A DNA stretch of 64,000 nt from Elusimicrobiota bacterium. Its GTDB lineage: Bacteria; Elusimicrobiota; Elusimicrobia; JACQPE01. This document shows positions 44,877-59,032 of this stretch, piece by piece. The stretch lies in contig JACPAN010000015.1 of NCBI GenBank assembly GCA_016180815.1, positions 140,680-204,679 of the forward strand, in the 5' to 3' direction. The position numbers were made by a program, and so were the translations under genes. How positions within the stretch are numbered: the stretch's first letter is position 1; every line of letters starts with the position of its first letter. Below the pieces are notes generated by a model. It saw nothing but the letters and a program-made list of their open reading frames with translations, was not told where the DNA came from and did not search any database.

Positions 44877-45149
44877 GGGGTCGCGGAGAAATAATATGTA
44901 CATTTTGGAGGCCCAGATTTGAGCCGTATGCTAGGCGCGCCGAGCGCAGCGTACCTGGAGGGTACGTTAGCGAAGGCGCAACGACGCAGACGGCCAAATA
45001 TGGGCCTCCCCGAAGGGCCAGGGCATTTTTGGGCTGCGACTTTGCCGGATTTTTTTTACGTACCTTGCAGGCACGCCGCAAAAAATCCGGCTTCGTCTCG
45101 CTCCAAAATTGCTCTGGCAAAATGTACATATTATTTCTCCGCGACCCCT
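44876..45149. mobile_element. MITE-like element with 32-bp terminal inverted repeats
   Basis: Bases 44876-44907 and 45118-45149 are identical inverted copies, 32 bases each, starting AGGGGTCGCGGAGAAATAAT. Within the left arm begins a second unit (44907-45009) with its own 15-base inverted ends, GGAGGCCCAGATTTG and CAAATATGGGCCTCC, one mismatch apart. This inner unit belongs to the same family as the copy at 1-69. A further perfect 12-base hairpin, GCCGGATTTTTT/AAAAAATCCGGC, lies at 45044-45091. There is no transposase; both flanking genes end exactly at the arms. It explains the gap between genes here. Confidence 0.8.
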
Positions 45150-45996: not shown

Positions 45997-46195
45997 CAGT
46001 TTCTTCAGGAAGTCTAACCCCGATTTTTAGAGAAATCAAGTTTCCTTAGCCTGGCCTTATCGAGCAAAGGAATTTCCTCAAACTTTAGGGCCTAAGCGGG
46101 GCCCGGGGGACACTAGGCGGAGTTGTTGCGGCGCGGCAAAATAATGAGGGGCGGATATCGGCCGCCGAAAATTGTCAACGATAGCGGGGTGTTGC

Positions 46196-46753
46196 ATGGT
46201 TCGCATGTTGTTCGTTCCTCTTTTTTTAGTTTCCGTGGCCGTTGCCTCGGCGCAGTCCACCCAAGAAACGCATGAGGAAGCGGCCGCGGTCTTTGATGGC
46301 TCCGGGGCAGGCCGGGAAATTCCCATCGGCCGTGGATTGGCGGTGGTGGCCAGTTCGGACAGCGTGGCGTCCAGCCGCATTCGTCCGGCGCATCGCTGGT
46401 GTCCGCCGGGTCCGGGCAAGTCGTTTCGCTGCAGGGATATCCCGGACCGGCTTATCGAAGAGCATGAAGTGATAACCACGTACCGGATTTTGGATCGCGC
46501 GCGTTACGCCGAAGCGCAAGGCAAGCCCTGGATTTTTCCGGGAGCAGCAGCGGGGTTGGGCCTTGGCTTGACGGCGGGGGCGCTGGCTTTGCTGGCCGCC
46601 GGGCCGCTCTCGACGCTGTTGATTTTGACCGGACTCGGCGCCGTCTTCGGCGCGGCCGCGGGTTATGTGACGGCCTGGAATATCGCGGCCAACAGGAGCG
46701 AGGTGTTCAGCGAGACCGAGGAATACACGGTGTCGCGCGACTTGCCGCAGTGA
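46196..46753 (+). CDS. Small exported membrane protein (cassette gene 1)
   Basis: 185 residues from ATG 46196. Signal peptide MLFVPLFLVSVAVASAQ, then a polar part with two Cys (HRWCPPGPGKSFRCRD near 70). A pair of Gly/Ala-rich membrane helices near 115-160 (GLGLGLTAGALALLAAG) and a polar tail follow. No family recognised. Three similar small genes follow with overlapping or very close ends. Confidence 0.6.
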   Translation: MVRMLFVPLFLVSVAVASAQSTQETHEEAAAVFDGSGAGREIPIGRGLAVVASSDSVASSRIRPAHRWCPPGPGKSFRCRDIPDRLIEEHEVITTYRILDRARYAEAQGKPWIFPGAAAGLGLGLTAGALALLAAGPLSTLLILTGLGAVFGAAAGYVTAWNIAANRSEVFSETEEYTVSRDLPQ

Positions 46754-47292
46754 AGAAAATTGCGTTGATATTCGTTTTCACTTCGGACGTTATGGCTTGG
46801 GCCGATCAAAACGAAACTTTATTGGCTCAAGCGAGGCCGTATTTTGGGGAAACGGCTCAAGCGGCGCCCAGGGCGGCGGTTCATCCTGTTCCTTCAACGG
46901 AAATAGGCGCTGCTTTAAGCCGGCCGTTGAGCGCGTCCGAAGAGCCTGCTGACCATGCGTGCCGGGAATCCTATGCGTTTTGCGTGCGTCAGGCGCGATT
47001 TTGGCGGCGGCGGGCCGGGCAAGACGAATTTTGGGGAAAAATCGAGCTGATCGCCGGGTTTGTTCAGGGCGCGGCCGGGGCGATTTCGCTGGCCGCGGCC
47101 GTTTACGCTTTCTCTTGGATTCCCCTGTTGATGGCGGTGTCCTCGTTGTTGGTTGGGGCGCTGCTTTTTTCAGCAGGAGCCAGGAGATTAAACCGGGCCC
47201 GGCGGACCGAAGCCCGCAGCCGGGAAATCGCCAATGATTGCGAACAAGAGAACAGACAATGTCAAGAATCAGGAGGAAACGATGCGTGTTAA
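46750..47292 (+). CDS. Small exported membrane protein (cassette gene 2)
   Basis: 180 residues from GTG 46750, which overlaps the previous stop (GTGA). A signal-like N-terminus is followed by a Pro/Ala stretch and two Cys (CRESYAFCV near 75). WGKIELIAGFVQGAAGAISL opens a two-helix membrane region. A basic helix ending in Cys (NDCEQENRQC) closes the protein. The same order of parts is seen in the next gene, so they may be paralogues. Function unknown. Confidence 0.6.
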   Translation: MKKIALIFVFTSDVMAWADQNETLLAQARPYFGETAQAAPRAAVHPVPSTEIGAALSRPLSASEEPADHACRESYAFCVRQARFWRRRAGQDEFWGKIELIAGFVQGAAGAISLAAAVYAFSWIPLLMAVSSLLVGALLFSAGARRLNRARRTEARSREIANDCEQENRQCQESGGNDAC

Positions 47293-47812
47293 TACTGTCG
47301 TCAAAGCTGTTGCAACGGCGGCTGTCGTCTTTTTATGCGGGCCCTGGCGGCTGACGGCCCAGGCGCTGCCGCAGGGGAGCGAATTTGAGCAGGCCCAGGA
47401 TGTTTTTGACGGAGCGCGTTGGTCCGGCGGCCCCAGGCGCTTAAGGCGCGATGTGCGGGCAATGAGTGATGCCGAAATCGATGCGGAAATTGATCCTATT
47501 GATCAGGATTGCCAGAGAAGTTTGTCTGATTTCATGGAGAATCGCGAGATCGCTTCCGCAGCGCGTCAGCGCGCTTGGGGCGAGCTGGCCGGCGGGGTCG
47601 TTTCAGCGGCCGGCGGGTTGACGTTGATGGCGTTGCCGGCTTTTGTGGGCGCCGGGGCGTTGGTTTTGTTTTTCGTTTTAGGCGGCACGCTGTGCTACCT
47701 TGCGTCGCGCCTGTTGCAATCCTCGGCGGAGTCTTTTCAGGAAGCCAGGGTGCATCAGTTTTTGGCGGAGCACAAAGCGGATAACGCCAATGCTCTTTGC
47801 CGTGAAGGATAA
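47282..47812 (+). CDS. Small exported membrane protein (cassette gene 3)
   Basis: 176 residues from ATG 47282 after AGGAGG; overlaps gene 2 by 11 bases. A signal peptide (AVATAAVVFLCGPWRLTAQA) leads to an acidic stretch (DAEIDAEIDPIDQDC). WGELAGGVVSAAGGLTLMAL then starts a two-helix membrane hairpin, and a charged helix ends in NALCREG. Compare WGKIELIAG...GAAGAISL in gene 2. I know no family. Confidence 0.6.
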   Translation: MRVNTVVKAVATAAVVFLCGPWRLTAQALPQGSEFEQAQDVFDGARWSGGPRRLRRDVRAMSDAEIDAEIDPIDQDCQRSLSDFMENREIASAARQRAWGELAGGVVSAAGGLTLMALPAFVGAGALVLFFVLGGTLCYLASRLLQSSAESFQEARVHQFLAEHKADNANALCREG

Positions 47813-49606: not shown

Positions 49607-50362
49607 ATGAACAAAGCTAAATTCCGGGAAGCGGCCCTGTTTCTGTTTTTATTTTTATTGGGGTTGATGTTTTGCGTGGGGGTTCACGCTGAGGGCGGGA
49701 AAGCTGGCGGCGGGAAAAAGAAATCATCCGCAACATCAAGAAACGACCGGGAATTAGAGGGTCTTCTGCGTACGGAAAATTTGGATCCGGCGAGCGAGGC
49801 GCATGGCCGGATTTTGGAATTGTTGGGCGACCGGGACGGAACCTCTGTGACCGTTTGCTTGCGGGCCGCGCGTTTCGGCGGGGACCGGGTCCGCGCCACG
49901 ACATCCGTTGGGCAGGCGCGGATGGCGCTTGATTTTATGGAGGCCGTGGCTCATGCGCGTTATGAAGCGCAGAATATTCAGGATTTCACGGCCCGCAACA
50001 TGATTGAATTTTTAAAAGTGTGCGTAGCCGACAATGAGAGCGGCCGTCCGCGCGCTTGCCGCAATGACATGGGATCGGAAAACGGGATTCCGGCCGTGGC
50101 CGATTATTTATTGCGTGAACGCAGGGAACCCGGTCCCGGGGGCAAGGGACATCGAAACGTGGGCGGGCATTTGAACCGGGCCCAAGCCCGGGCTGCGAAT
50201 GAAGCCAGTGAGGATGTGATTAACGGAGTGATCGAGCTGGCGGAGACAAAAGCTGAGTATGAACCGTATGTTGTTTGGCTTGAATCCATGGGTTTGACCA
50301 ATTACGCGGAGAAAATAAGGAATGAACGCCTGGATACGGCCAGGCGGGAATTGCTTCGTTAG
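49607..50362 (+). CDS. Exported protein of unknown function
   Basis: 251 residues. The signal peptide (AALFLFLFLLGLMFCVGVHA) is followed by a Gly/Lys-rich linker (GGKAGGGKKKSS) and a mostly helical domain with three Cys. No known motif. It has its own promoter and strong ribosome site, so it is surely a gene. Its end overlaps the convergent TVP38-type gene by four bases. Confidence 0.65.
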   Translation: MNKAKFREAALFLFLFLLGLMFCVGVHAEGGKAGGGKKKSSATSRNDRELEGLLRTENLDPASEAHGRILELLGDRDGTSVTVCLRAARFGGDRVRATTSVGQARMALDFMEAVAHARYEAQNIQDFTARNMIEFLKVCVADNESGRPRACRNDMGSENGIPAVADYLLRERREPGPGGKGHRNVGGHLNRAQARAANEASEDVINGVIELAETKAEYEPYVVWLESMGLTNYAEKIRNERLDTARRELLR

Positions 50363-51048
50363 AAAGGATTCTTTTTACGGTTGGCGGGCAGCCATTTTTT
50401 GAAAATTTTCGGCGTCATGGAAAGAAAAACCATGAGCATGGCGGCCAGGAATAAATGCACGAAGGCTTTACCGTTGACGCCCGTTGTTCCGGATAAAATG
50501 GAGTCCGCAAAATAGGTGTAGATAAAGGTTCCCGGCAGCATGCCTGCCAGCGAGCCCAGGGCAAAGTCCCGATAGCGAATTTTGGAAATACCGGCCGCGA
50601 AATTCAAGCCGTTGAAGGGAACAAAAGGCAGGAGCCTGAGCGTCAGTATCGTTTGGAAGCCGTGTTGAGCGGCTTTGGCGTCTAAAGCCGCCAGTTTGCC
50701 ATCTTTTAAAAGAGAAGCCACAAAATCCCGGCCCATGAACCGGGCGACCAAAAAGGCCAAAGAGGCGCCGATATTGGCGGAAATCGCGTTGTAAATGGTG
50801 CCCCACAGCGTTCCGAAAACCGCGCCTCCCCCCAAAACAAAAGGGATGGCAGGCAAACCCACGGCGCTGGTGCAGGCATAGGCCGCGATGAAGGCGATAG
50901 GTCCCCACCAGACATTTCTGAGTATGCGGATAAAAGCGAGCAGGGAGTCTTTGTTGAGGTAAGGGGCCAGGGGGCTGAATCGCGCCAAGAGCGCAATCGC
51001 CAGAAGGCCCGCAATCAGCGCCGCAAATTTTCCCGCGCGCGCGTTCAT
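50359..51048 (-). CDS. TVP38/TMEM64 family membrane protein
   Basis: 229 residues from ATG 51048, which overlaps the upstream stop as ATGA; the open frame reaches further but only shadows the neighbour. FVLGGGAVFGTLWGTIYNAI and GASLAFLVARFMGRDF near 75-110, then LRLLPFVPFNGLNFAAGISK near 145, are the VTT domain motifs shared with DedA. DedA-superfamily proteins are linked to lipid scrambling and envelope homeostasis. Last gene of the eight-ORF run starting at pit. Confidence 0.88.
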   Translation of the reverse strand: MNARAGKFAALIAGLLAIALLARFSPLAPYLNKDSLLAFIRILRNVWWGPIAFIAAYACTSAVGLPAIPFVLGGGAVFGTLWGTIYNAISANIGASLAFLVARFMGRDFVASLLKDGKLAALDAKAAQHGFQTILTLRLLPFVPFNGLNFAAGISKIRYRDFALGSLAGMLPGTFIYTYFADSILSGTTGVNGKAFVHLFLAAMLMVFLSMTPKIFKKWLPANRKKNPF

Positions 51049-51848
51049 TGGGCGGCCAAGGACCGGATAAAGGGCATGGCGAGAAGTTTGGGCAAGGTGA
51101 TATCTTGCGGGCGCGGGTATTCCTTCAAACCGATCGCGATATTTTTCTGATCGCCGCGCCAGAGATAAGTGCCGAGGAGCCTGTCCCAGAAAGAAAAAAG
51201 ATTGGAGTAGTTGGAATTCGTCTCGCCGGGGATATTCGAGTGATGGATGCGGTGCATGTCCGGCGTCACGAATACCCGGCGCAGACGCGTTTCCCAAGGT
51301 TCCGGGATGTGGATGTTGGCGTGCTGGAACTGCGCGGCCAAAAGTAGCCCGGCTTCGTGAATCGCTATGGCGATCGCGCTCGGCCCCCAAATAAAACCGA
51401 TGAACATTTTAAAGGTTGAAGAAAGCAGAATTTCGCCCAAGTGAAAGCGGGACGCGCTGGTGACGTCTAGATCTAAATCGCTGTGATGCACTTTGTGCAG
51501 GCGCCACATGAGCGGGATTTCATGATAGGAGCGATGCCAAAGGTAAGTGATGAAATCAAGAAAAACGAATGACAGCGCGATATTGGCCCAGGGCGGCAGA
51601 TTTGAGGCGTTGAGCAGGCCGATCTTGCGGCTGCCCAGGTAATCGAAATACGCCACGATCATGCTGGAAACGCCGATGTTTAAAACCAAGACATTAAAGC
51701 CGCCTAGAAGCAGATTCGTTAAGTAATGTTTGGGCGCGGGCACGACGAGTTTACGGAAGGGCCGGAGTTGTTCCCAACAGCCGAAACCGATCAGCCCGCC
51801 GACGGAGAAAATCAGCCGCCAGGCGCCGGTTTCAAGCCCAAGAAACAT
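51045..51848 (-). CDS. Sterol desaturase/fatty acid hydroxylase family protein
   Basis: Di-iron membrane oxygenase, 267 residues. The His boxes are WHRSYHEIP near 105, HKVHHSD near 118, the middle FQHANIHI near 175, and MHRIHHS near 200. Four membrane helices. Known relatives hydroxylate or desaturate lipids, or cleave alkylglycerol ethers. Placed in the arsenosugar-type run, it may act on the lipid part of the product; this is inference. Confidence 0.9.
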   Translation of the reverse strand: MFLGLETGAWRLIFSVGGLIGFGCWEQLRPFRKLVVPAPKHYLTNLLLGGFNVLVLNIGVSSMIVAYFDYLGSRKIGLLNASNLPPWANIALSFVFLDFITYLWHRSYHEIPLMWRLHKVHHSDLDLDVTSASRFHLGEILLSSTFKMFIGFIWGPSAIAIAIHEAGLLLAAQFQHANIHIPEPWETRLRRVFVTPDMHRIHHSNIPGETNSNYSNLFSFWDRLLGTYLWRGDQKNIAIGLKEYPRPQDITLPKLLAMPFIRSLAAQ

Positions 51849-51931
51849 CAGAGCGAGCGAAAAATCAGGCGGCGTTCGATTTTGCCCCGGGGTTTTCCGT
51901 CGGCTTCAACGTATCCATGGCGTTTGTTCAT
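51848..51931 (-). CDS. 27-residue coupled mini-ORF
   Basis: ATG 51931 overlaps the stop of the His-rich protein gene (ATGA), and its stop overlaps the start of the desaturase-family gene (TGATG). The peptide is strongly basic (KPRGKIERRLIFRSL at the C-terminus). It may be a true small protein, or a translational relay that carries ribosomes to the next gene. Confidence 0.4.
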   Translation of the reverse strand: MNKRHGYVEADGKPRGKIERRLIFRSL

Positions 51932-52452
51932 TTTTTCTCTTGAAGCGGGACCATTTTGTTGTTGCTGTTGTAGGTGAAGCGTGGCTTGCCGTTGACTTTG
52001 TGAATGACGACTTTATCCATGATCCAGCCGCTCTCTGTTTTCGTGGCGTAAAAGTCCAGGTCCACGGTGTTTTTGTCGCCTTTGAGCGCGGACTTGAAAT
52101 CCGCGCAAGCGAAAAACGAATCGCCGCCTAAATGGACGATTTTGTTCGTATGGATGCGCACCAGCTTAAGCCGCCATTCCTTGTTGAGTTTGGCGTCTTT
52201 GATTTTGAAGGAGCCTTTGGCGGATTTGGTTTTGACATGCGTTTTGACGAAGTCGTTGTATTCCCCGTACATCTGTTTTTTCCAGCCGGTTGATCCGGCC
52301 GGGTGCTCGTGCCCCTCCGGATGTTCATGGCTTTCGTGGCTTGCCGGGTGCTCATGCGTTTGGCCGGTCGGGTGTTCCGTGGGGTGTTCCGCGACGGCGA
52401 AACCCGTGGTCAAAATCATCGAAACGATCAGGGCGGCTGGTTTTTTGTTCAT
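51928..52452 (-). CDS. Secreted His-rich protein of unknown function
   Basis: 174 residues. After a signal peptide (LIVSMILTTGFAVA) comes a His/Glu/Pro-rich segment of about 35 residues (EHPTEHPTGQTHEHPASHES), a likely metal-binding region. The C-terminal domain (about 55-170) looks beta-rich (KLVRIHTNKIVHLGGDSFFA). It overlaps its neighbours on both sides. A role in binding a metal or metalloid in the periplasm would fit; unproven. Confidence 0.65.
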   Translation of the reverse strand: MNKKPAALIVSMILTTGFAVAEHPTEHPTGQTHEHPASHESHEHPEGHEHPAGSTGWKKQMYGEYNDFVKTHVKTKSAKGSFKIKDAKLNKEWRLKLVRIHTNKIVHLGGDSFFACADFKSALKGDKNTVDLDFYATKTESGWIMDKVVIHKVNGKPRFTYNSNNKMVPLQEKK

Positions 52453-53888
52453 GGGATCTCCTTTTGTTTTTCGTGGGCGTTATCCGGCGCGGCCAACGAA
52501 ATATCGTCGAAATAGGCGCTGGCCGTTTCTCCGGTATTGTCCGTGTCCGTCATCAGAGCGATAAAAGCGATATCCGGAGGATCCTCTCCGAAAAGCCGTT
52601 TGTAATCATCGTAAATATTGCGTTCTTCGGTTCGCCATTTTCCCACATTCTCCGGACCGCTTTCCACGGCGATCATTTTTGTCCGGTTCGTGTAAGGATT
52701 ATCCACGGCCGCGCCGATGGGAAGTTTATTGTCCCAGATATAATTTAAGGCGGCGTGGGGCGGGTAATGGCCGTACAGGGATTTAGCGACGCCATATTTG
52801 GCCCGCTGCCAGGCGGAGGCGTTTTTGGGGTCGTAGCGAAAAGCCACGTAAATCCGCGCCGCATAATCGTCACCGCTTTTTTTGCGGGCATCGGCTTTCT
52901 CCAGGACGCGCTCGATTTTCCAGCGCCAGCGCAACATGGGGTAATCCTTGGGGCTGGCTTGAACTTCCTTTAGAATGGCCGAGGCTGAGAACGAGCTTTG
53001 AGCCATGACGAAGTAATCGCCGTTTTCTTCGACAAGCGAGTACGCGGTGCGGCGCGGTATTTTTTTAAATACGAGGGGCTTCCAGTTTTTAGGGAGACCG
53101 TCGGGCTCCGTTGCCCCGGAAAATGAATCGATCGACAGGGTGCGGCCGAGCGGTGTCAACGCGAATATTGCTTGAGCGGCCAGAAACACGGCCAAGAGCA
53201 AAGCGATGGGCGCGCCCCAGAGTTTTAGGCTTCCTTTGCCCAAAGCCTCGAGTATCGGCCGCGTATGAATCAGGCCGCCGTTATGATGGCGCGCGAAATC
53301 CAAGAGGCGCTTTAAATCCTCGGCTGTGTCGATGTCGCCGAGTTTGTTTAAAAGCCCGGGCTCGAGGTTCAAGAAACGCAGGCGCGAGAGGGTTTCTTCA
53401 AAAACCCGGGGCGTGGACCAGGGGATGTTTTCAAAAACCTCCGGGACCGGACGGCAAAGGCCGATTAAATAGTAGCCGCCGTCATGAGCCGGGCCTAGAA
53501 CAATGTCATGCCGGTCCAACAGTTCGAAGGCGTGCGTCAAATGATCGGCGCTGAGGCGAGGCGAGTCCGAGCCGATGATCACGACTTTTGAGGCGCCCGA
53601 AGAAAACGCGTGCTGCGCGGCATGGGAGAGGCGTTCGCCTAAATCGGAGCCCTGTTGAGGGAAAAAATCCGGCCGGTCATCGCTCATCCATACGGGTTCA
53701 ATATGCGGCGGCCAAGGATCATAGGCCACATCAACTTGGGTTAAGGGCACGGAGCGGGCCGCGGACAAAGCGTCTTTGGCCAGGGCTTTATACAAAGCGG
53801 CCGCTTCCCGGTTTGACAAGGGCGGACAAAGCCGTGTTTTGACCTGTCCGGGCACCGGGGCTTTGACGAAAATAACGATTTTGTTCAT
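52449..53888 (-). CDS. Fusion: TIGR04282-type glycosyltransferase plus DUF3047
   Basis: 479 residues. About 1-200 is a GT-A nucleotide-sugar transferase of the TIGR04282/DUF2064 type: FVKAPVPGQVKTRLCPPLS, then IIGSDSPRLSADHL and GPAHDGGYYLIGL. A membrane helix follows near 225-245 (LWGAPIALLLAVFLAAQAIF). The rest (about 255-470) is DUF3047, with MLRWRWKIERVL and YAARIYVAFRYDP. This order would put the transferase in the cytoplasm and DUF3047 outside. The fusion is unusual. It overlaps both flanking genes by four bases. Confidence 0.82.
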   Translation of the reverse strand: MNKIVIFVKAPVPGQVKTRLCPPLSNREAAALYKALAKDALSAARSVPLTQVDVAYDPWPPHIEPVWMSDDRPDFFPQQGSDLGERLSHAAQHAFSSGASKVVIIGSDSPRLSADHLTHAFELLDRHDIVLGPAHDGGYYLIGLCRPVPEVFENIPWSTPRVFEETLSRLRFLNLEPGLLNKLGDIDTAEDLKRLLDFARHHNGGLIHTRPILEALGKGSLKLWGAPIALLLAVFLAAQAIFALTPLGRTLSIDSFSGATEPDGLPKNWKPLVFKKIPRRTAYSLVEENGDYFVMAQSSFSASAILKEVQASPKDYPMLRWRWKIERVLEKADARKKSGDDYAARIYVAFRYDPKNASAWQRAKYGVAKSLYGHYPPHAALNYIWDNKLPIGAAVDNPYTNRTKMIAVESGPENVGKWRTEERNIYDDYKRLFGEDPPDIAFIALMTDTDNTGETASAYFDDISLAAPDNAHEKQKEIP

Positions 53889-54562
53889 CGGTATATTTTG
53901 GCTAAAAGTTCGGGCGGCAGTCCCAGATAATAACAGGCGATGATGGCGTTGTTTTTCAGGCCATTGAGAAGGGGGCCGTTTTTTTCATGGCGGCGTTTGG
54001 AGGTGCGGACTTGTTGGGGCAGAACGTGCACGGGCCCGAGATGTTTGAGTTTGCCGACCAGCGCGTATTCTTCCATCAGCGGCATCTCCGGGAATCCTCC
54101 GGCCTCGAAATAATGTTCACGGCTGACGGCAATGGCCTGGTCCCCGTGCGGAACGCCGGTCAGGCTCCGGCGCCAGCGCGCCGCAGCCTCGATGAGGCGA
54201 TACGGCCAGCCTTGCGCGTCGAACCCGATCTCGAAGGCCGTGGCTGAGTGATGATGGCCGTTGGACCAAGCCTCAAGGAGAATGTTTTGCCAATCATCGG
54301 GCAATAAAGTGTCCGCATGCAGAAAAAGAAAGAGATCGCCTTTGGCCGCGAGCGCGCCTTCATGCATTTGCCGGGCGCGCGGGCGTTGAGCGGAGACGGT
54401 TCTGTCGGCCAGGAATTGGGCGGCGTCAAGCGTGGAATCCTTGCTTTGACCATCGGCCACGATGATTTCAACGGCTGATGTTGCGGTGGCGCGCAAATGC
54501 GCTAAAAGTCCGGGCAAGATCTCGGCTTCGTTAAAAGTCGGGACAATGACGCTTAGCAGCAT
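53885..54562 (-). CDS. TIGR04283-type glycosyltransferase (arsenosugar cluster type)
   Basis: Family 2 glycosyltransferase, 225 residues from ATG 54562, which overlaps the upstream stop by ten bases. LLSVIVPTFNEAEILPGLL at the N-terminus, EIIVADGQSKDST near 38 and FLFLHADTLLP near 85 (metal-binding Asp) are typical. TIGR04283 proteins occur next to arsenite methylation and are assigned to arsenosugar biosynthesis. Here it directly follows an ArsM-like fusion. Confidence 0.88.
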   Translation of the reverse strand: MLLSVIVPTFNEAEILPGLLAHLRATATSAVEIIVADGQSKDSTLDAAQFLADRTVSAQRPRARQMHEGALAAKGDLFLFLHADTLLPDDWQNILLEAWSNGHHHSATAFEIGFDAQGWPYRLIEAAARWRRSLTGVPHGDQAIAVSREHYFEAGGFPEMPLMEEYALVGKLKHLGPVHVLPQQVRTSKRRHEKNGPLLNGLKNNAIIACYYLGLPPELLAKIYR

Positions 54563-57162
54563 GCCCCGCCTTCGCAACAACCGTCATTCGCGGCAACGGC
54601 CATGGGCAAGGCTGCCGGCGCTTGTGAGCCGTCGGACTCATACACCAAAAACTGTCCGGCGTAAGCGCCGGAGCGCAGCTTGGCCGCGGTGTCCGTGCAG
54701 ATTTCGATGGATTCTCCTCTGGGGAACAAATGCCCTTCTTCATCCATGGCCGCTTTATAAGGGCCCAGGTACACGGCTTGCTGCCCCATAAACCGGCAGC
54801 CGGCTTTTTTTTCGAATTTGAAAGCTTGCACCGTGAGCGAATGGAATTGATAGGCCTTCACTTCTTTCCAGAACGTTTTTTTGAGGATTCGGATGCCGTA
54901 AAAACCCGCTCGCTCCAGCGCAGTCAAAAATTCCTCCTCAGAAAGCGAGCCGGAAATGCATTCCCCCCATAGGTCTTGATGCGCGGCCAAGGCTAAAGGC
55001 ACCGGCCGGTCGGCGACAATATCCGCGACAACCATGCGGCCCGTATCCTTTAGAACGCGCCAGATTTCGGCGAAGACTTTATTTTTGTCCGGCGAGAGAT
55101 TGATCACGCAATTAGACGTGACCAGGTCCACGCTCGCGGTCTCAGCCGGGATATTTTCCAGATAGCCGTCGCGAAATTCCACGACGTCGTATCCTAAGAC
55201 AGCGGCCACGTCGTTTTTGCATTGCCGGGCCACGGTGAGCATTTCCTGGGTCATGTCCACGCCGATGACGCGGCCCGTGGGCCCGACTTTTTTGGCGGCG
55301 ATGAAGCAGTCGATGCCCGCGCCCGAGCCCAAATCCAGCATGGTTTCACCGGCCTTGAGCCCGGCCTGGGTGACCGGCGAGCCGCAGCCGTAAAAACGAT
55401 CGAGAACCTCTCTGGGGATATGCCCGACTTCGCTCTCGTCGTACTTGACCGGACAGCAGAGCTCTTTCTGCGGGGCGAGGGCTGCTTTGCCGTAGAAGTT
55501 TTGAATGATTTTGTAAGGCTTTTCCACGTCGAAGGACAGCACGCAATTGGAATGCGTGAGCTTGACCTTCACGGCGGCGCCGTCGGGATCAAGCCAGAGC
55601 GCGGCGTCTTGGCTGGAGGCGATTTGACCCTCGCCCATGGCATGGTAAATGACGGGAGGATTGAATCCTGATTTTAAATTGAGCGCGGCTTTTTTCGTTG
55701 AGGCCAGGTCAAACATCGCGTCTTTCATCAACTCCACATAGAGTTCATGGTAGGGGTCTTCACCCATCAGGCTGCCTTCATGTCCGTTGGCGCTGTCGTT
55801 TCCGCTCTGCCGAGCTCCAACCATTTCCGCGCCGACCCGCTTCGCGGGTACCCCGGCTTGGTCAAAGAAATAACTGTGTTCGATATCCCCGCCTCCGGTC
55901 AGGAAGCGGAAGGGATGGCCGCTGAGTGATTTTTTCTGTCCGACCGTGGCGTTGCGAAACGCGCGGGCGACGGGGCTCTCCATCCAAATTTTTCGAAGCG
56001 GTTCTTTTTCGGCGTCGCCTAAGGCTAAGGCCGGATAACCGGCCATGGCCGCCGAGGGATAAACTTTGCCGTCCATATACACGCAGAGGCTTTCCCAGCA
56101 GCAATTGCCCAAGTCGTATTTGACGCCCGGCAGTCCGTTGACGCGCAGGGCAAAGGACTCGGCATTGTCGACAATAACGCCCAATTCTTTGGATGCGGCT
56201 TTGACGGTGCGCGCTAAGTGCGCGAGTTCGGCATGCGTAGGGAAAGCCGCGGACCCGTCGGTTTCCAGAATGCGCCCGCGTTTGTGCAGCCACATCAAAT
56301 GCACGGACTTGGCGCCGAGCTCCTTGGCGAGCTTGGGCAATTGTTCAAGGTCGCGGACATTGGATTTGGTGACGGCCGCGGTCAGCGATGTTGCAAACCC
56401 GAGTTCGTTTAATGTTTTTAAGCCGGCCGAGGCTTTGGCGAAGACGCCGGCTCCGCGAATGGGATCGTTCGTTTCCGGGCGGCAGCCGTCTAAGCTCACT
56501 TGGAAATTCAGGCGTTCGCGGTCGAGGGTTTTGAGCGCCTCGAGCCTAGGCCCAGAAAACAGCGTGGCGTTGGTCAACACCATCAGCTGCGCTTTTTTGT
56601 CCTCGGTGGTATAGCGGATTAAATCGAAAATATCCTCCCGGATAAAGGGTTCGCCGCCCGTAAAGTAGAAGCGCCGAACGCCCAGATCAAAGCCTTGGTC
56701 GATCAGGCCCAAATAAAAATCGCGGCCGAGCCCCTTCTCGCCGCCGGGACCTGAGGACACCAGGCAATGGCTACAGGCCAGGTTGCAGGTTTGCAGCAAA
56801 TGAATCCAGAGTTCGTTGAGCGTTTTCGGTTCAAGCGCTTCGCCGCGCCCCGGATAAGGCGGCGCGGTTTGGGCGGCGGCGTGGAGCATGCCCTTGGCCA
56901 TGGCCTGGCGAACAAACACATGAAGATCGCGCCAGGCTTTAGCCGCGTCCGAGACGAATTGTTCGTTATAGAGCCGGAAAATTTCCCCAAGGGTTTTGCG
57001 GCCGTCGACCCACTCGAGCAGCCGGGCGCCGCGTTGATCGACCGCTATCCAATTGGGCGCTCCGCCGTCGATGAAAAAATGAATCCCCTCGCGCTCGAAC
57101 GAATCAAGGCGGCTGCGGTGAAGGACAAGCGAGTCTTTGAGTTCCGGAATTTGCAGCGACAT
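54553..57162 (-). CDS. Three-domain fusion: PqqD-like, radical SAM, ArsM-like methyltransferase
   Basis: 869 residues. About 1-95 is PqqD-like. A radical SAM domain follows with the cluster site Cys126, Cys130, Cys133 (LLQTCNLACSHCLVS) and YFTGGEPFIRED; further Cys lie in GNCCWESLC near 353. About 500-800 is a SAM methyltransferase with MLDLGSGAGIDCF near 608. Its Cys in RFYGCGSP, SNCVINLSPDK and WGECISGSLSEEE correspond to the three arsenite-binding Cys of ArsM. The C-terminus ends CCEGGACC, a metal-binding tail. It probably methylates arsenite and transfers a radical-generated adenosyl unit, the two steps that separate ArsM and ArsS proteins perform elsewhere. The activity assignment is inference. 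Confidence 0.85.
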   Translation of the reverse strand: MSLQIPELKDSLVLHRSRLDSFEREGIHFFIDGGAPNWIAVDQRGARLLEWVDGRKTLGEIFRLYNEQFVSDAAKAWRDLHVFVRQAMAKGMLHAAAQTAPPYPGRGEALEPKTLNELWIHLLQTCNLACSHCLVSSGPGGEKGLGRDFYLGLIDQGFDLGVRRFYFTGGEPFIREDIFDLIRYTTEDKKAQLMVLTNATLFSGPRLEALKTLDRERLNFQVSLDGCRPETNDPIRGAGVFAKASAGLKTLNELGFATSLTAAVTKSNVRDLEQLPKLAKELGAKSVHLMWLHKRGRILETDGSAAFPTHAELAHLARTVKAASKELGVIVDNAESFALRVNGLPGVKYDLGNCCWESLCVYMDGKVYPSAAMAGYPALALGDAEKEPLRKIWMESPVARAFRNATVGQKKSLSGHPFRFLTGGGDIEHSYFFDQAGVPAKRVGAEMVGARQSGNDSANGHEGSLMGEDPYHELYVELMKDAMFDLASTKKAALNLKSGFNPPVIYHAMGEGQIASSQDAALWLDPDGAAVKVKLTHSNCVLSFDVEKPYKIIQNFYGKAALAPQKELCCPVKYDESEVGHIPREVLDRFYGCGSPVTQAGLKAGETMLDLGSGAGIDCFIAAKKVGPTGRVIGVDMTQEMLTVARQCKNDVAAVLGYDVVEFRDGYLENIPAETASVDLVTSNCVINLSPDKNKVFAEIWRVLKDTGRMVVADIVADRPVPLALAAHQDLWGECISGSLSEEEFLTALERAGFYGIRILKKTFWKEVKAYQFHSLTVQAFKFEKKAGCRFMGQQAVYLGPYKAAMDEEGHLFPRGESIEICTDTAAKLRSGAYAGQFLVYESDGSQAPAALPMAVAANDGCCEGGACC

Positions 57163-57171
57163 AACCCTCCT

Positions 57172-58158
57172 CTATACGATTTTGTTTAACAGCCAATAGC
57201 ACCCGACGCCGATGGCGCCTGCTATGGGCACGGTAACGAGCCAAGCCGCGACAATTCCCCCGGCTGTTTTCCAGTTGAGGCCGCCTTTTTGCAGGCCCAT
57301 GCCCATGATGGCGGAGCCCGAGACATGCGTGGTTGAAACCGGAAAACCCTTGACGGCCGTGGCCATGACCATCGCGGATGTGGCCAGATTGGCGGCGAAT
57401 CCCTCCAAATGATTCATGCGCGTCACTTGATGCGCCAGGGTTTCGGTTACTTTAAGTCCCATGATGACGCTGCCCGCGGCATTAGCCAAGGCCAGGATCA
57501 AGAAGAACCATTTGGGCGCAATGTGAACATTGGGATCGATCACATGATAAAAAACCATCCCTAAGGCCGCAATTTTCGGGGTGTCGTTTAAACCCCGGGC
57601 AAATCCTGACGAGATGGCGCTCATCCAATGGGCCCAATGACAATTGATGCAGTATTGCCGTTCGCAAAGCCAATAAAGAAAGCGAAAAATCACCACGCCC
57701 AGGCCGAATGCGGCGATGGGCGAGATCAACAAGGGCAAGACTATTTTTTTGGTGACGCCGGCCCACAACACGTTGTCGAAGCCGAAGGCATAAAGGCCGG
57801 TGAGAACCACAGAACCCACGATCGAATGCGTTGTGGACACGGGAAGGCCGGTTTTTGAGGCGAATAAAACCCAACCGATGGCGCCGCCTAGAACCGCCAA
57901 GGCGAAGAGCTGATTGACCGCTACTTGAGGAGAGAGCATGCCTTTGGTGAACAGCAAAGTCATTTTAACGGCCCAACCGGAGGCTATAGTCGCGCCTGCA
58001 GCAGCGGCCAAAGACACAAGAAGCACCGCTTTTTTGTAATCCGACTCCCCGCTGCCCACTAAGGTGGCGACTGATTTTGAAATATCATTGGCGCCGTTGG
58101 CAAAGGCCAGGATGATGGCGCCGGAAATCCCAAAAATAGAAATCAAATTCATAGACAT
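57172..58158 (-). CDS. pit: PiT-family inorganic phosphate transporter
   Basis: 328 residues, about ten membrane helices in two repeats. LAFANGANDISKSVATLVG near 17 and FARGLNDTPKIAAL near 190 are the duplicated family signature. KTGLPVSTTHS and KGFPVSTTHVSG are the matching pairs. PiT carriers also take up arsenate as a phosphate analogue, which is suggestive because the next gene, nine bases on, is an ArsM fusion. It is probably the first gene of the run and is divergent from an ECF sigma factor. Confidence 0.92.
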   Translation of the reverse strand: MSMNLISIFGISGAIILAFANGANDISKSVATLVGSGESDYKKAVLLVSLAAAAGATIASGWAVKMTLLFTKGMLSPQVAVNQLFALAVLGGAIGWVLFASKTGLPVSTTHSIVGSVVLTGLYAFGFDNVLWAGVTKKIVLPLLISPIAAFGLGVVIFRFLYWLCERQYCINCHWAHWMSAISSGFARGLNDTPKIAALGMVFYHVIDPNVHIAPKWFFLILALANAAGSVIMGLKVTETLAHQVTRMNHLEGFAANLATSAMVMATAVKGFPVSTTHVSGSAIMGMGLQKGGLNWKTAGGIVAAWLVTVPIAGAIGVGCYWLLNKIV

Positions 58159-58214
58159 CCAATGAGTGCGCAGTAATATGTGCGTTCAATGGGTAGAATA
58201 TTACACTTCATTTT

Positions 58215-58793
58215 ATGATGCCCAAAATAACGGAGCCCAGTTTCGAGGATATTAAAAGCCGTAGGCCCGAGGCCTTGAGCCGTTTGGTGGAGATGCATAC
58301 GCCGGCGTTATTGGCCGGAGCTTTGGGTTTGGGGTTCCCTCCGAGTGAAGCCGAGGAGTTGGTTCAAGACACATTTGTCGCTTTTTTGAGCGCGCTGGAG
58401 CGTTTTGAGGGGCGTTCTCAGGTCAAAACGTATTTGTTCGGGATTCTTTACAATAAAGCTTTGGAATTGAGGCGGCGGCAAGGCCGCGAGGAAACAACCG
58501 ATGAAATCGAAAAAATCGTGGACAGCCGGTTTGACAGCCGGGGCCATTGGACGCGTCCGCCCAAGGGGCCTGAAGACGAGGCCCGGATCAGCGAATTGGG
58601 CCGGATGATCAACGATTGCGCCGGGGGTTTGGGCATCAAGGAGCGGGCCGCGTTCTATTTGAAGGAAGGGGAGCGTCAAAGCACGGAGCACATCTGTAAT
58701 ATGTTGGGTATTTCCCCCACTTATTTAGGGGTGCTTCTTTTTCGGGCCAGAAACAAATTGAGGGAGTGCCTGGAAGGAACAATGAACGGTTGA
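58215..58793 (+). CDS. ECF-type RNA polymerase sigma factor
   Basis: 192 residues. Sigma region 2 reads AEELVQDTFVAFLSALERFE, then VKTYLFGILYNKALELRRRQ. After a longer than usual linker (about 95-135), region 4 has STEHICNMLGISPTYLGVLL, then FRARNKLRECL. The next gene, coupled by TGATG, encodes a short zinc anti-sigma-like protein. It starts 56 bases from pit on the other strand. Confidence 0.88.
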   Translation: MMPKITEPSFEDIKSRRPEALSRLVEMHTPALLAGALGLGFPPSEAEELVQDTFVAFLSALERFEGRSQVKTYLFGILYNKALELRRRQGREETTDEIEKIVDSRFDSRGHWTRPPKGPEDEARISELGRMINDCAGGLGIKERAAFYLKEGERQSTEHICNMLGISPTYLGVLLFRARNKLRECLEGTMNG

Positions 58794-59032
58794 TGTTGGG
58801 CATGCCGAGCTGCCGTGAAGTGACCCGTTTGGTTGCCAGCGGAGAAATTGAGACTCTGAGGGGGTTCAAGCGTTTTTTGGTGCGCGCGCATTATTTGATT
58901 TGCAGATATTGCACGCGCTATGCCCGGGAAATCCGTTTAATCGGCCGGGCGTTTAAAGCCGCCGCCGACAGCCGCGACCTTTCCGCCCAGGCCGGCCGTT
59001 TGACCGGCCGTATCCTGTCCCGATTAAATTAA
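58793..59032 (+). CDS. Minimal zinc-binding anti-sigma factor-like protein
   Basis: 79 residues from ATG 58793, inside the sigma stop (TGATG). CREVTRLVASGEIETLRG is the first helix of the anti-sigma fold, and RAHYLICRYCTRYAREI has the His-x3-Cys-x2-Cys zinc motif (HYLICRYC) of ZAS proteins such as RsrA and ChrR. It has no membrane segment or sensor domain, so it would act in the cytoplasm, perhaps responding to oxidants or thiol-reactive metalloids through the Cys pair. Confidence 0.75.
   Translation: MLGMPSCREVTRLVASGEIETLRGFKRFLVRAHYLICRYCTRYAREIRLIGRAFKAAADSRDLSAQAGRLTGRILSRLN

Follow-up and report, generated by a model that had tools for sequence, protein, structure and literature searches.

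An arsenosugar pathway in Synechocystis, made up of ArsM and ArsS, was reportedly described by Xue (2019) and Cheng (2021). Arsenosugar synthesis begins with the methylation of As(III) by ArsM, and the arsenic is adenosylated by ArsS, a radical S-adenosylmethionine (SAM) enzyme (PMC12159101, PMC8552651); the literature we found names only these first two steps and not the later genes. Here we describe a run of eight open reading frames (ORFs) in a 64,000-nucleotide stretch of DNA (the window) from the genome of an uncultured Elusimicrobia bacterium (2.85 Mb, 99.5% complete), at the core of which lies one gene encoding PqqD, radical SAM and ArsM domains in a single chain. Judged from sequence comparisons, and with a probability that we put at roughly two in three, this is an inducible operon for organoarsenicals of the arsenosugar type, built around a single three-domain enzyme. 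No description of such a fusion was found in the open-access literature, most subscription papers lying outside the search.

The eight ORFs lie on the minus strand between 58158 and 50359 (Table 1), where the ORF list of the window and the initial annotation had placed them. Their spacings, beginning with Pit/fusion and fusion/TIGR04283, are +9, -10, -4, -4, -4, -1 and -4 bases, which bears out the tight single-strand packing proposed there, and Pfam and NCBIfam domain searches agree with the protein identities that it had given. The fusion consists of a PqqD domain (residues 35-93; 25.5 bits, cut-off 23.4), a radical SAM domain (PF04055, 60 bits, cut-off 29.5) with the CX3CX2C motif CNLACSHC at residues 126-133 (C126-C133), a degenerate SPASM region (22.8 bits, cut-off 21.5) and an ArsM half (residues ~550-869). 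The ArsM half scores 235 bits on NF008823, slightly below the cut-off of 263, and its top matches in the PDB are arsenic methyltransferases. Cysteines C569/C570, C593, C685 and C735, together with a CC pair in the tail, are invariant among 11 aligned homologs, and C593, C685 and C735 correspond in alignment to the YGCG, SNCV and GEC motifs of ArsM enzymes with solved structures; the invariance of these residues upholds the earlier proposal of arsenic chemistry.

The fusion family is old. Across 84,980 genomes, a single scan returned 11 full-length homologs, from Elusimicrobia, one Troglogloeales, one Nitrospirae and one Planctomycetota metagenome-assembled genome, and 10 of the 11 align at 51-68% identity. 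Fusions were found in 15 of 295 Elusimicrobiota genomes, some of these matches being split or cut by contig ends, and 38 of 346 genomes in the phylum of locus L014 match at E 1e-80 or better, a count that takes in unfused relatives and a sister clade described below. Residues ~435-457 of the window protein form an insertion that is missing from 18 homologs and derives from an interspersed repeat with five genomic copies and a hairpin-forming part. The predicted structure of the fusion (mean predicted local distance difference test score, pLDDT, of 60) was too poor for use. The Planctomycetota fusion gene (L015, 8550-11021) is interrupted by an in-frame TAG at position 219 of the aligned residues, perhaps owing to an assembly error, and the Troglogloeales fusion (L012) nests within the Elusimicrobia fusions with full support in the ArsM tree, reflecting either horizontal transfer or a misbinned contig. 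A selenocysteine considered for the fusion of genome G210 was rejected, the TGA sitting beyond the conserved C-terminal CC.

We mapped the neighbors of 35 fusion loci. At the 18 Elusimicrobia loci, within a reach of ~10 kb, we found Pit at 15, TVP38 at 13, TIGR04283 at 11, a MerA-like reductase at 10, TIGR04282 at 8, an extracytoplasmic function (ECF) sigma factor at 6, DUF547, DUF3047 and an anti-sigma-like protein at 5 each, the His-rich protein at 4 and the hydroxylase at 3; the queries were Elusimicrobial proteins, and distant homologs may be missed in these counts. By comparison, 42 control loci of similar length with an ordinary ArsM held none of these genes except one MerA-like gene, and 16 loci of the sister fusion clade held one Pit and one transferase pair. 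The frequencies of Pit, TVP38 and the transferases thus lie far above those at both types of control locus, more than chance would give (Fisher p ~1e-11 for Pit and TVP38, related loci not being independent). TIGR04283 is above its cut-off in 13 of the 15 fusion genomes (p 1e-13), and the association of the TIGR04282 and TIGR04283 families with arsenic genes stands, both recurring at fusion loci and both being above cut-off together in the window. Pit is 64-71% identical at most Elusimicrobia fusion loci and is also found at ArsS-type loci.

TVP38, which adjoins 20 of the 35 fusion loci and accompanies fusion or split versions in Nitrospirota, belongs firmly to the pathway, and DUF3047 recurs across phyla. 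In the Nitrospirota locus L228 the gene order is ECF, fusion, Pit, TVP38, DUF3047 and MerA-like; TVP38 lies directly 3' of the fusion in L213 and L215, and an unfused ArsM is found with TVP38 and TIGR04283 in L233, L235 and L236, the genome of L233 having on another contig (L234) an unfused PqqD-radical SAM gene adjoining TIGR04282.

The same cassette is found around true ArsS. In the same class, locus L149 contains Pit, ArsM, GT87, ArsS, TIGR04282, DUF547 and TIGR04283 with a divergent ECF/anti-sigma-like pair, its ArsS (460 bits, cut-off 300) being separate from its ArsM. An independent ArsS-ArsM fusion (L165, genome G281; ArsS 398 bits) lies with MerA-like, TVP38 and DUF547 genes. ArsS was detected in 8 of the 295 genomes (one match partial and below cut-off), none of which has the fusion, and a search of the host genome gave no ArsS with an E-value of 1e-30 or better. 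TIGR04283 exceeds its cut-off in 27 genomes, of which 13 carry the fusion and 5 others ArsS; by direct count, such a complete separation has a probability of 0.025. In the ArsM tree, which contains some long branches, the fusion lineage stands apart from the ArsS-associated ArsMs. The simplest reading of these comparisons is that two separately evolved core enzymes serve one accessory cassette. Because L149 has separate ArsM and ArsS in this cassette and ArsS is absent from fusion genomes, the fusion most likely takes the place of the two enzymes in a pathway of the arsenosugar type.

The initial annotation overlooked a divergent ECF sigma/zinc-finger anti-sigma-like gene pair next to pit, together with a matching promoter. 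The ECF protein matches sigma-70 region 2 above cut-off and region 4 slightly below it, and its homologs adjoin fusion, ArsS-type and other TIGR04283 loci. Near fusion genes, no small ORF is conserved other than the anti-sigma-like HxxxCxxC gene, which occurs at 7 loci in two phyla. Comparison of operon heads revealed a shared motif, GTAACATTyTA-n4-TTtGnCCtACtTA, pointing in the operon direction. The copies in L106, L116, L155 and L156 match it exactly, that of L105 differs at one position, those of L006 and L103 at two and that of the window at three; in L006 and L016, a degenerate copy also lies ahead of the MerA-like gene. None of 60 shuffled loci had a copy with two or fewer mismatches, and the motif fits a candidate ECF promoter. 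It was seen only by this comparison; counts of simple sigma-70 promoters and terminators did not exceed those in shuffles.

We propose that arsenic or thiol stress would release the ECF factor and so switch on the operon, and that Pit would import phosphate or arsenate. The ArsM half would methylate As(III), and the radical SAM half would attach a larger group taken from SAM. As with ArsS, this group would most likely be 5'-deoxyadenosyl, in which case the ribose of the sugar would come from SAM. The TIGR04282 and TIGR04283 proteins would then exchange or decorate the aglycone, replacing or extending the sugar part. In the TIGR04282-DUF3047 protein, a single membrane helix near residue 219 separates the two domains, so that the DUF3047 domain probably faces the opposite side of the membrane. 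This tethered protein and TVP38, optionally with the hydroxylase and the His-rich protein, may deal with the product at the membrane or in its transfer across it. That product would be an arsenosugar, either water-soluble or linked to the membrane.

A number of observations weigh against this arsenosugar scheme. The fused radical SAM part scores 67 bits on the ArsS profile TIGR04167, far from the curated cut-off of 300, and is not ArsS by that cut-off; its reaction is thus one that we infer. Among solved structures, BlsE, PqqE and SkfB are closest to it, which, with the low ArsS score, makes it possible that it catalyzes another reaction than ArsS. The SPASM cysteines are gone in the window protein and its Elusimicrobia homologs (LTGGGD, compared with CxxC...CGGG in L014/L015). 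TIGR04282 and TIGR04283 are arsenosugar enzymes by NCBI name, with no biochemical test in the literature found. The genome has no ArsC of the PF03960 type, thioredoxin-coupled ArsC not having been searched for, and many Nitrospirota fusions of the window lineage have no cassette genes detected within 10 kb. Finally, chance alone predicts ~0.4 genomes with both fusion and ArsS, so that the lack of overlap is weak by itself and the mutual exclusion of the two is only suggestive.

It is possible, if unlikely, that the radical SAM half differs from ArsS in its chemistry, for example by transferring a 3-amino-3-carboxypropyl group as ArsL does, and that a new organoarsenical is made and then glycosylated. 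The ArsS score and the separate, PqqD-bearing lineage are consistent with this, as is the sister clade of PqqD-radical SAM-ArsM fusions (Nitrospirota L216-L227 and L243-L246; ~800 residues, without the ArsM tail domain), in which the fusion is followed by a 493-residue B12-binding radical SAM protein in 16 of 16 loci, without the transferases. This partner shows a relationship to BchE/HpnJ and a weak one to P-methyltransferases and ArsL. The sister clade is possibly a second organoarsenic pathway, and its pairing suggests that the fusion scaffold serves more than one pathway. However, in L149 true ArsM and ArsS occupy the same Pit/DUF547/TIGR04282/TIGR04283/ECF cassette, which argues for the same class of product.

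A limited likelihood attaches to an arsenolipid end product, in which the hydroxylase and TVP38 would act on a lipid moiety and the arsenosugar would be joined to a membrane lipid. TVP38 is a constant partner, and arsenolipids are reported from cyanobacteria with ArsM/ArsS by a reference cited in PMC12159101. The hydroxylase has three intact histidine boxes, HRSYH, HKVHH and HRIHH (HX3H, HX2HH and HX2HH), with the motifs kept in 6 homologs, and is distantly related to the ornithine lipid hydroxylase OlsE (77.6 bits on NF052566, below the cut-off of 475). It lies beside TIGR04282/TIGR04283 in five loci: three of them (the window, L006 and L016) also hold the fusion, and two (L159 and L170) do not. 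However, it adjoins only 3 of the 18 Elusimicrobia fusion loci, and hydroxylase homologs occupy 27 places in the 295 genomes, 4 of them at loci of this kind; the closest orthologs (G174, G157, G274 and G266) sit away from fusion loci. Moreover, TVP38 is a general membrane protein family with members in 13 of 14 control genomes, the operon has no acyl- or phospholipid-transferase gene, and the case for a lipid product comes down to two membrane protein families.

The top hydroxylase ortholog (67%, in G174) lies beside His-rich and transglutaminase-like genes, and L170 has the row transglutaminase-like, His-rich, DsbD-like, hydroxylase, TIGR04282 and TIGR04283. In view of these neighborhoods, the hydroxylase and His-rich genes form a module added to the pathway in some genomes only; they are real but optional partners. 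The His-rich protein has no Pfam or NCBIfam match, and its predicted structure (mean pLDDT 47) was too poor for use. Of the 295 genomes, 31 have homologs of it; among the 15 fusion genomes, 13 have a His-rich homolog and 10 have the hydroxylase, co-occurrences that are confounded by phylogeny; the His-rich gene also lies beside TIGR04282/TIGR04283 pairs without a fusion. The mini-ORF has no counterpart in any related locus compared and is probably a translational coupler or a chance ORF. Overall, the earlier claim that the last four genes belong with the arsenic genes applies well to TVP38 and less so to the hydroxylase, given their counts at the Elusimicrobia loci, and the mini-ORF is not conserved; a conserved neighborhood with the arsenic genes was found for TVP38, DUF3047, the His-rich protein and the hydroxylase.

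Less likely still is the combination of a non-ArsS route to the C-As bond, an undescribed membrane-linked organoarsenical and an arsenic-sensing ECF switch, with the sister clade and its B12-radical SAM protein making a second such compound. That the locus is a plain arsenic methylation or resistance operon with bystander membrane and transferase genes is very improbable: ArsM is present and methylation alone is a known detoxification, but the same non-ArsM genes recur in three phyla and are nearly absent near the 42 other ArsM genes. Least probable of all is a pathway resembling that of ribosomally synthesized and post-translationally modified peptides, in which PqqD would mark a peptide substrate, perhaps from the mini-ORF or His-rich protein, for conversion to an arsenic-bearing or -binding peptide; PqqD plus SPASM is typical of peptide maturases and a mini-ORF is present, but it is not conserved, the His-rich gene is missing from most fusion loci and no conserved precursor candidate was found near fusion genes, where the sole conserved small ORF is anti-sigma-like.

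Table 1. Features of the putative organoarsenical operon and its surroundings (window positions)
Feature	Position	Strand	Evidence or remark
Pit-family (PHO4) inorganic anion transporter, operon gene 1	57172..58158	-	PF01384, 204 bits (cut-off 33.7)
PqqD-radical SAM-ArsM fusion, 869 residues, core enzyme	54553..57162	-	Profile matches; invariant ArsM cysteines
In-frame insertion within fusion gene, ~23 residues	55780..55865	-	Copy of 67-bp genomic repeat
GT2-type transferase TIGR04283	53885..54562	-	227.5 bits (cut-off 182); NCBI label, arsenosugar biosynthesis; start most likely ATG 54562
TIGR04282 (CofC/DUF2064-like)-DUF3047 fusion	52449..53888	-	TIGR04282, 205.6 bits (134); DUF3047, 267 bits (27)
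His-rich (EHP-repeat) protein, signal-like N terminus	51928..52452	-	Conserved C-terminal domain
Mini-ORF, 27 residues	51848..51931	-	ORF list
Fatty-acid-hydroxylase/sterol-desaturase-family membrane protein	51045..51848	-	PF04116, 94 bits (31)
TVP38/DedA-superfamily (VTT domain) membrane protein, last gene	50359..51048	-	PF09335, 90.7 bits (33.9); start likely ATG 51048
ECF-type promoter-like motif, operon direction	58177..58204	-	3 mismatches to shared motif
ECF sigma-70 factor, divergent from pit	58215..58793	+	Sigma-70 region 2, TIGR02937
88-residue HxxxCxxC protein, probable zinc-finger anti-sigma partner	58766..59032	+	Conserved small ORF

Further core types were observed elsewhere. In the Elusimicrobiota loci L148 and L151-L154, ArsM is found with a small (~296-327 residues) radical SAM protein that is not ArsS and does not resemble the fusion, accompanied in L148 by Pit, GT87, TIGR04282, TIGR04283 and ECF. 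The TIGR04283/TIGR04282 loci L155 and L156 have yet another radical SAM protein, with the exact ECF motif at the operon head, and L155 additionally holds DUF547, TVP38 and MerA-like genes. Away from the operon, the window contains an inverted repeat pair (1-77 and 44896-44972; 77 bases, 81% complementary, 44.8 kb apart) and, at 46172-47812, three adjacent plus-strand ORFs of similar size (193, 180 and 192 residues), each with a hydrophobic pair in its second half, which resemble a small tandem family.

Among known systems, the arsinothricin cluster arsQML of Burkholderia gladioli (PMC8552651) resembles the window in having ArsM beside a radical SAM enzyme that forms a C-As bond. However, the window ArsM scores 211 of 500 bits on NF040538, sugar-type transferases are present, and no GntP-type gene that would correspond to ArsQ is among the annotated operon proteins. 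The L165 fusion likewise joins radical SAM and ArsM in one chain with adjacent MerA-like, TVP38 and DUF547 genes, but its radical SAM part is a true ArsS and lacks PqqD. The sister-clade fusions share the domain order at ~40% identity and differ in their intact SPASM cysteines, missing tail domain, BchE/HpnJ-like partner and lack of the cassette. With the cyanobacterial system of Synechocystis, as cited in PMC8552651 and PMC12159101, the window shares ArsM plus a radical SAM enzyme. It also shares the TIGR04282 and TIGR04283 families with the cyanobacterial arsenosugar pathway, whose true ArsS is found in the same cassette in the relative L149. Unlike cyanobacterial ArsS, the window radical SAM part is of another lineage, carries PqqD and is fused to ArsM, and Pit, an ECF/anti-sigma-like pair, DUF3047 and TVP38 lie in or beside the operon. 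A cassette that is common to two unrelated core enzymes, and that occurs in three phyla, provides candidates for the missing later steps, namely TIGR04282, TIGR04283, DUF3047/DUF547, TVP38 and the MerA-like protein, along with a testable regulator. It also hints that chemistry of the arsenosugar type, known from algae and cyanobacteria, extends to distant, uncultured bacteria of groundwater.

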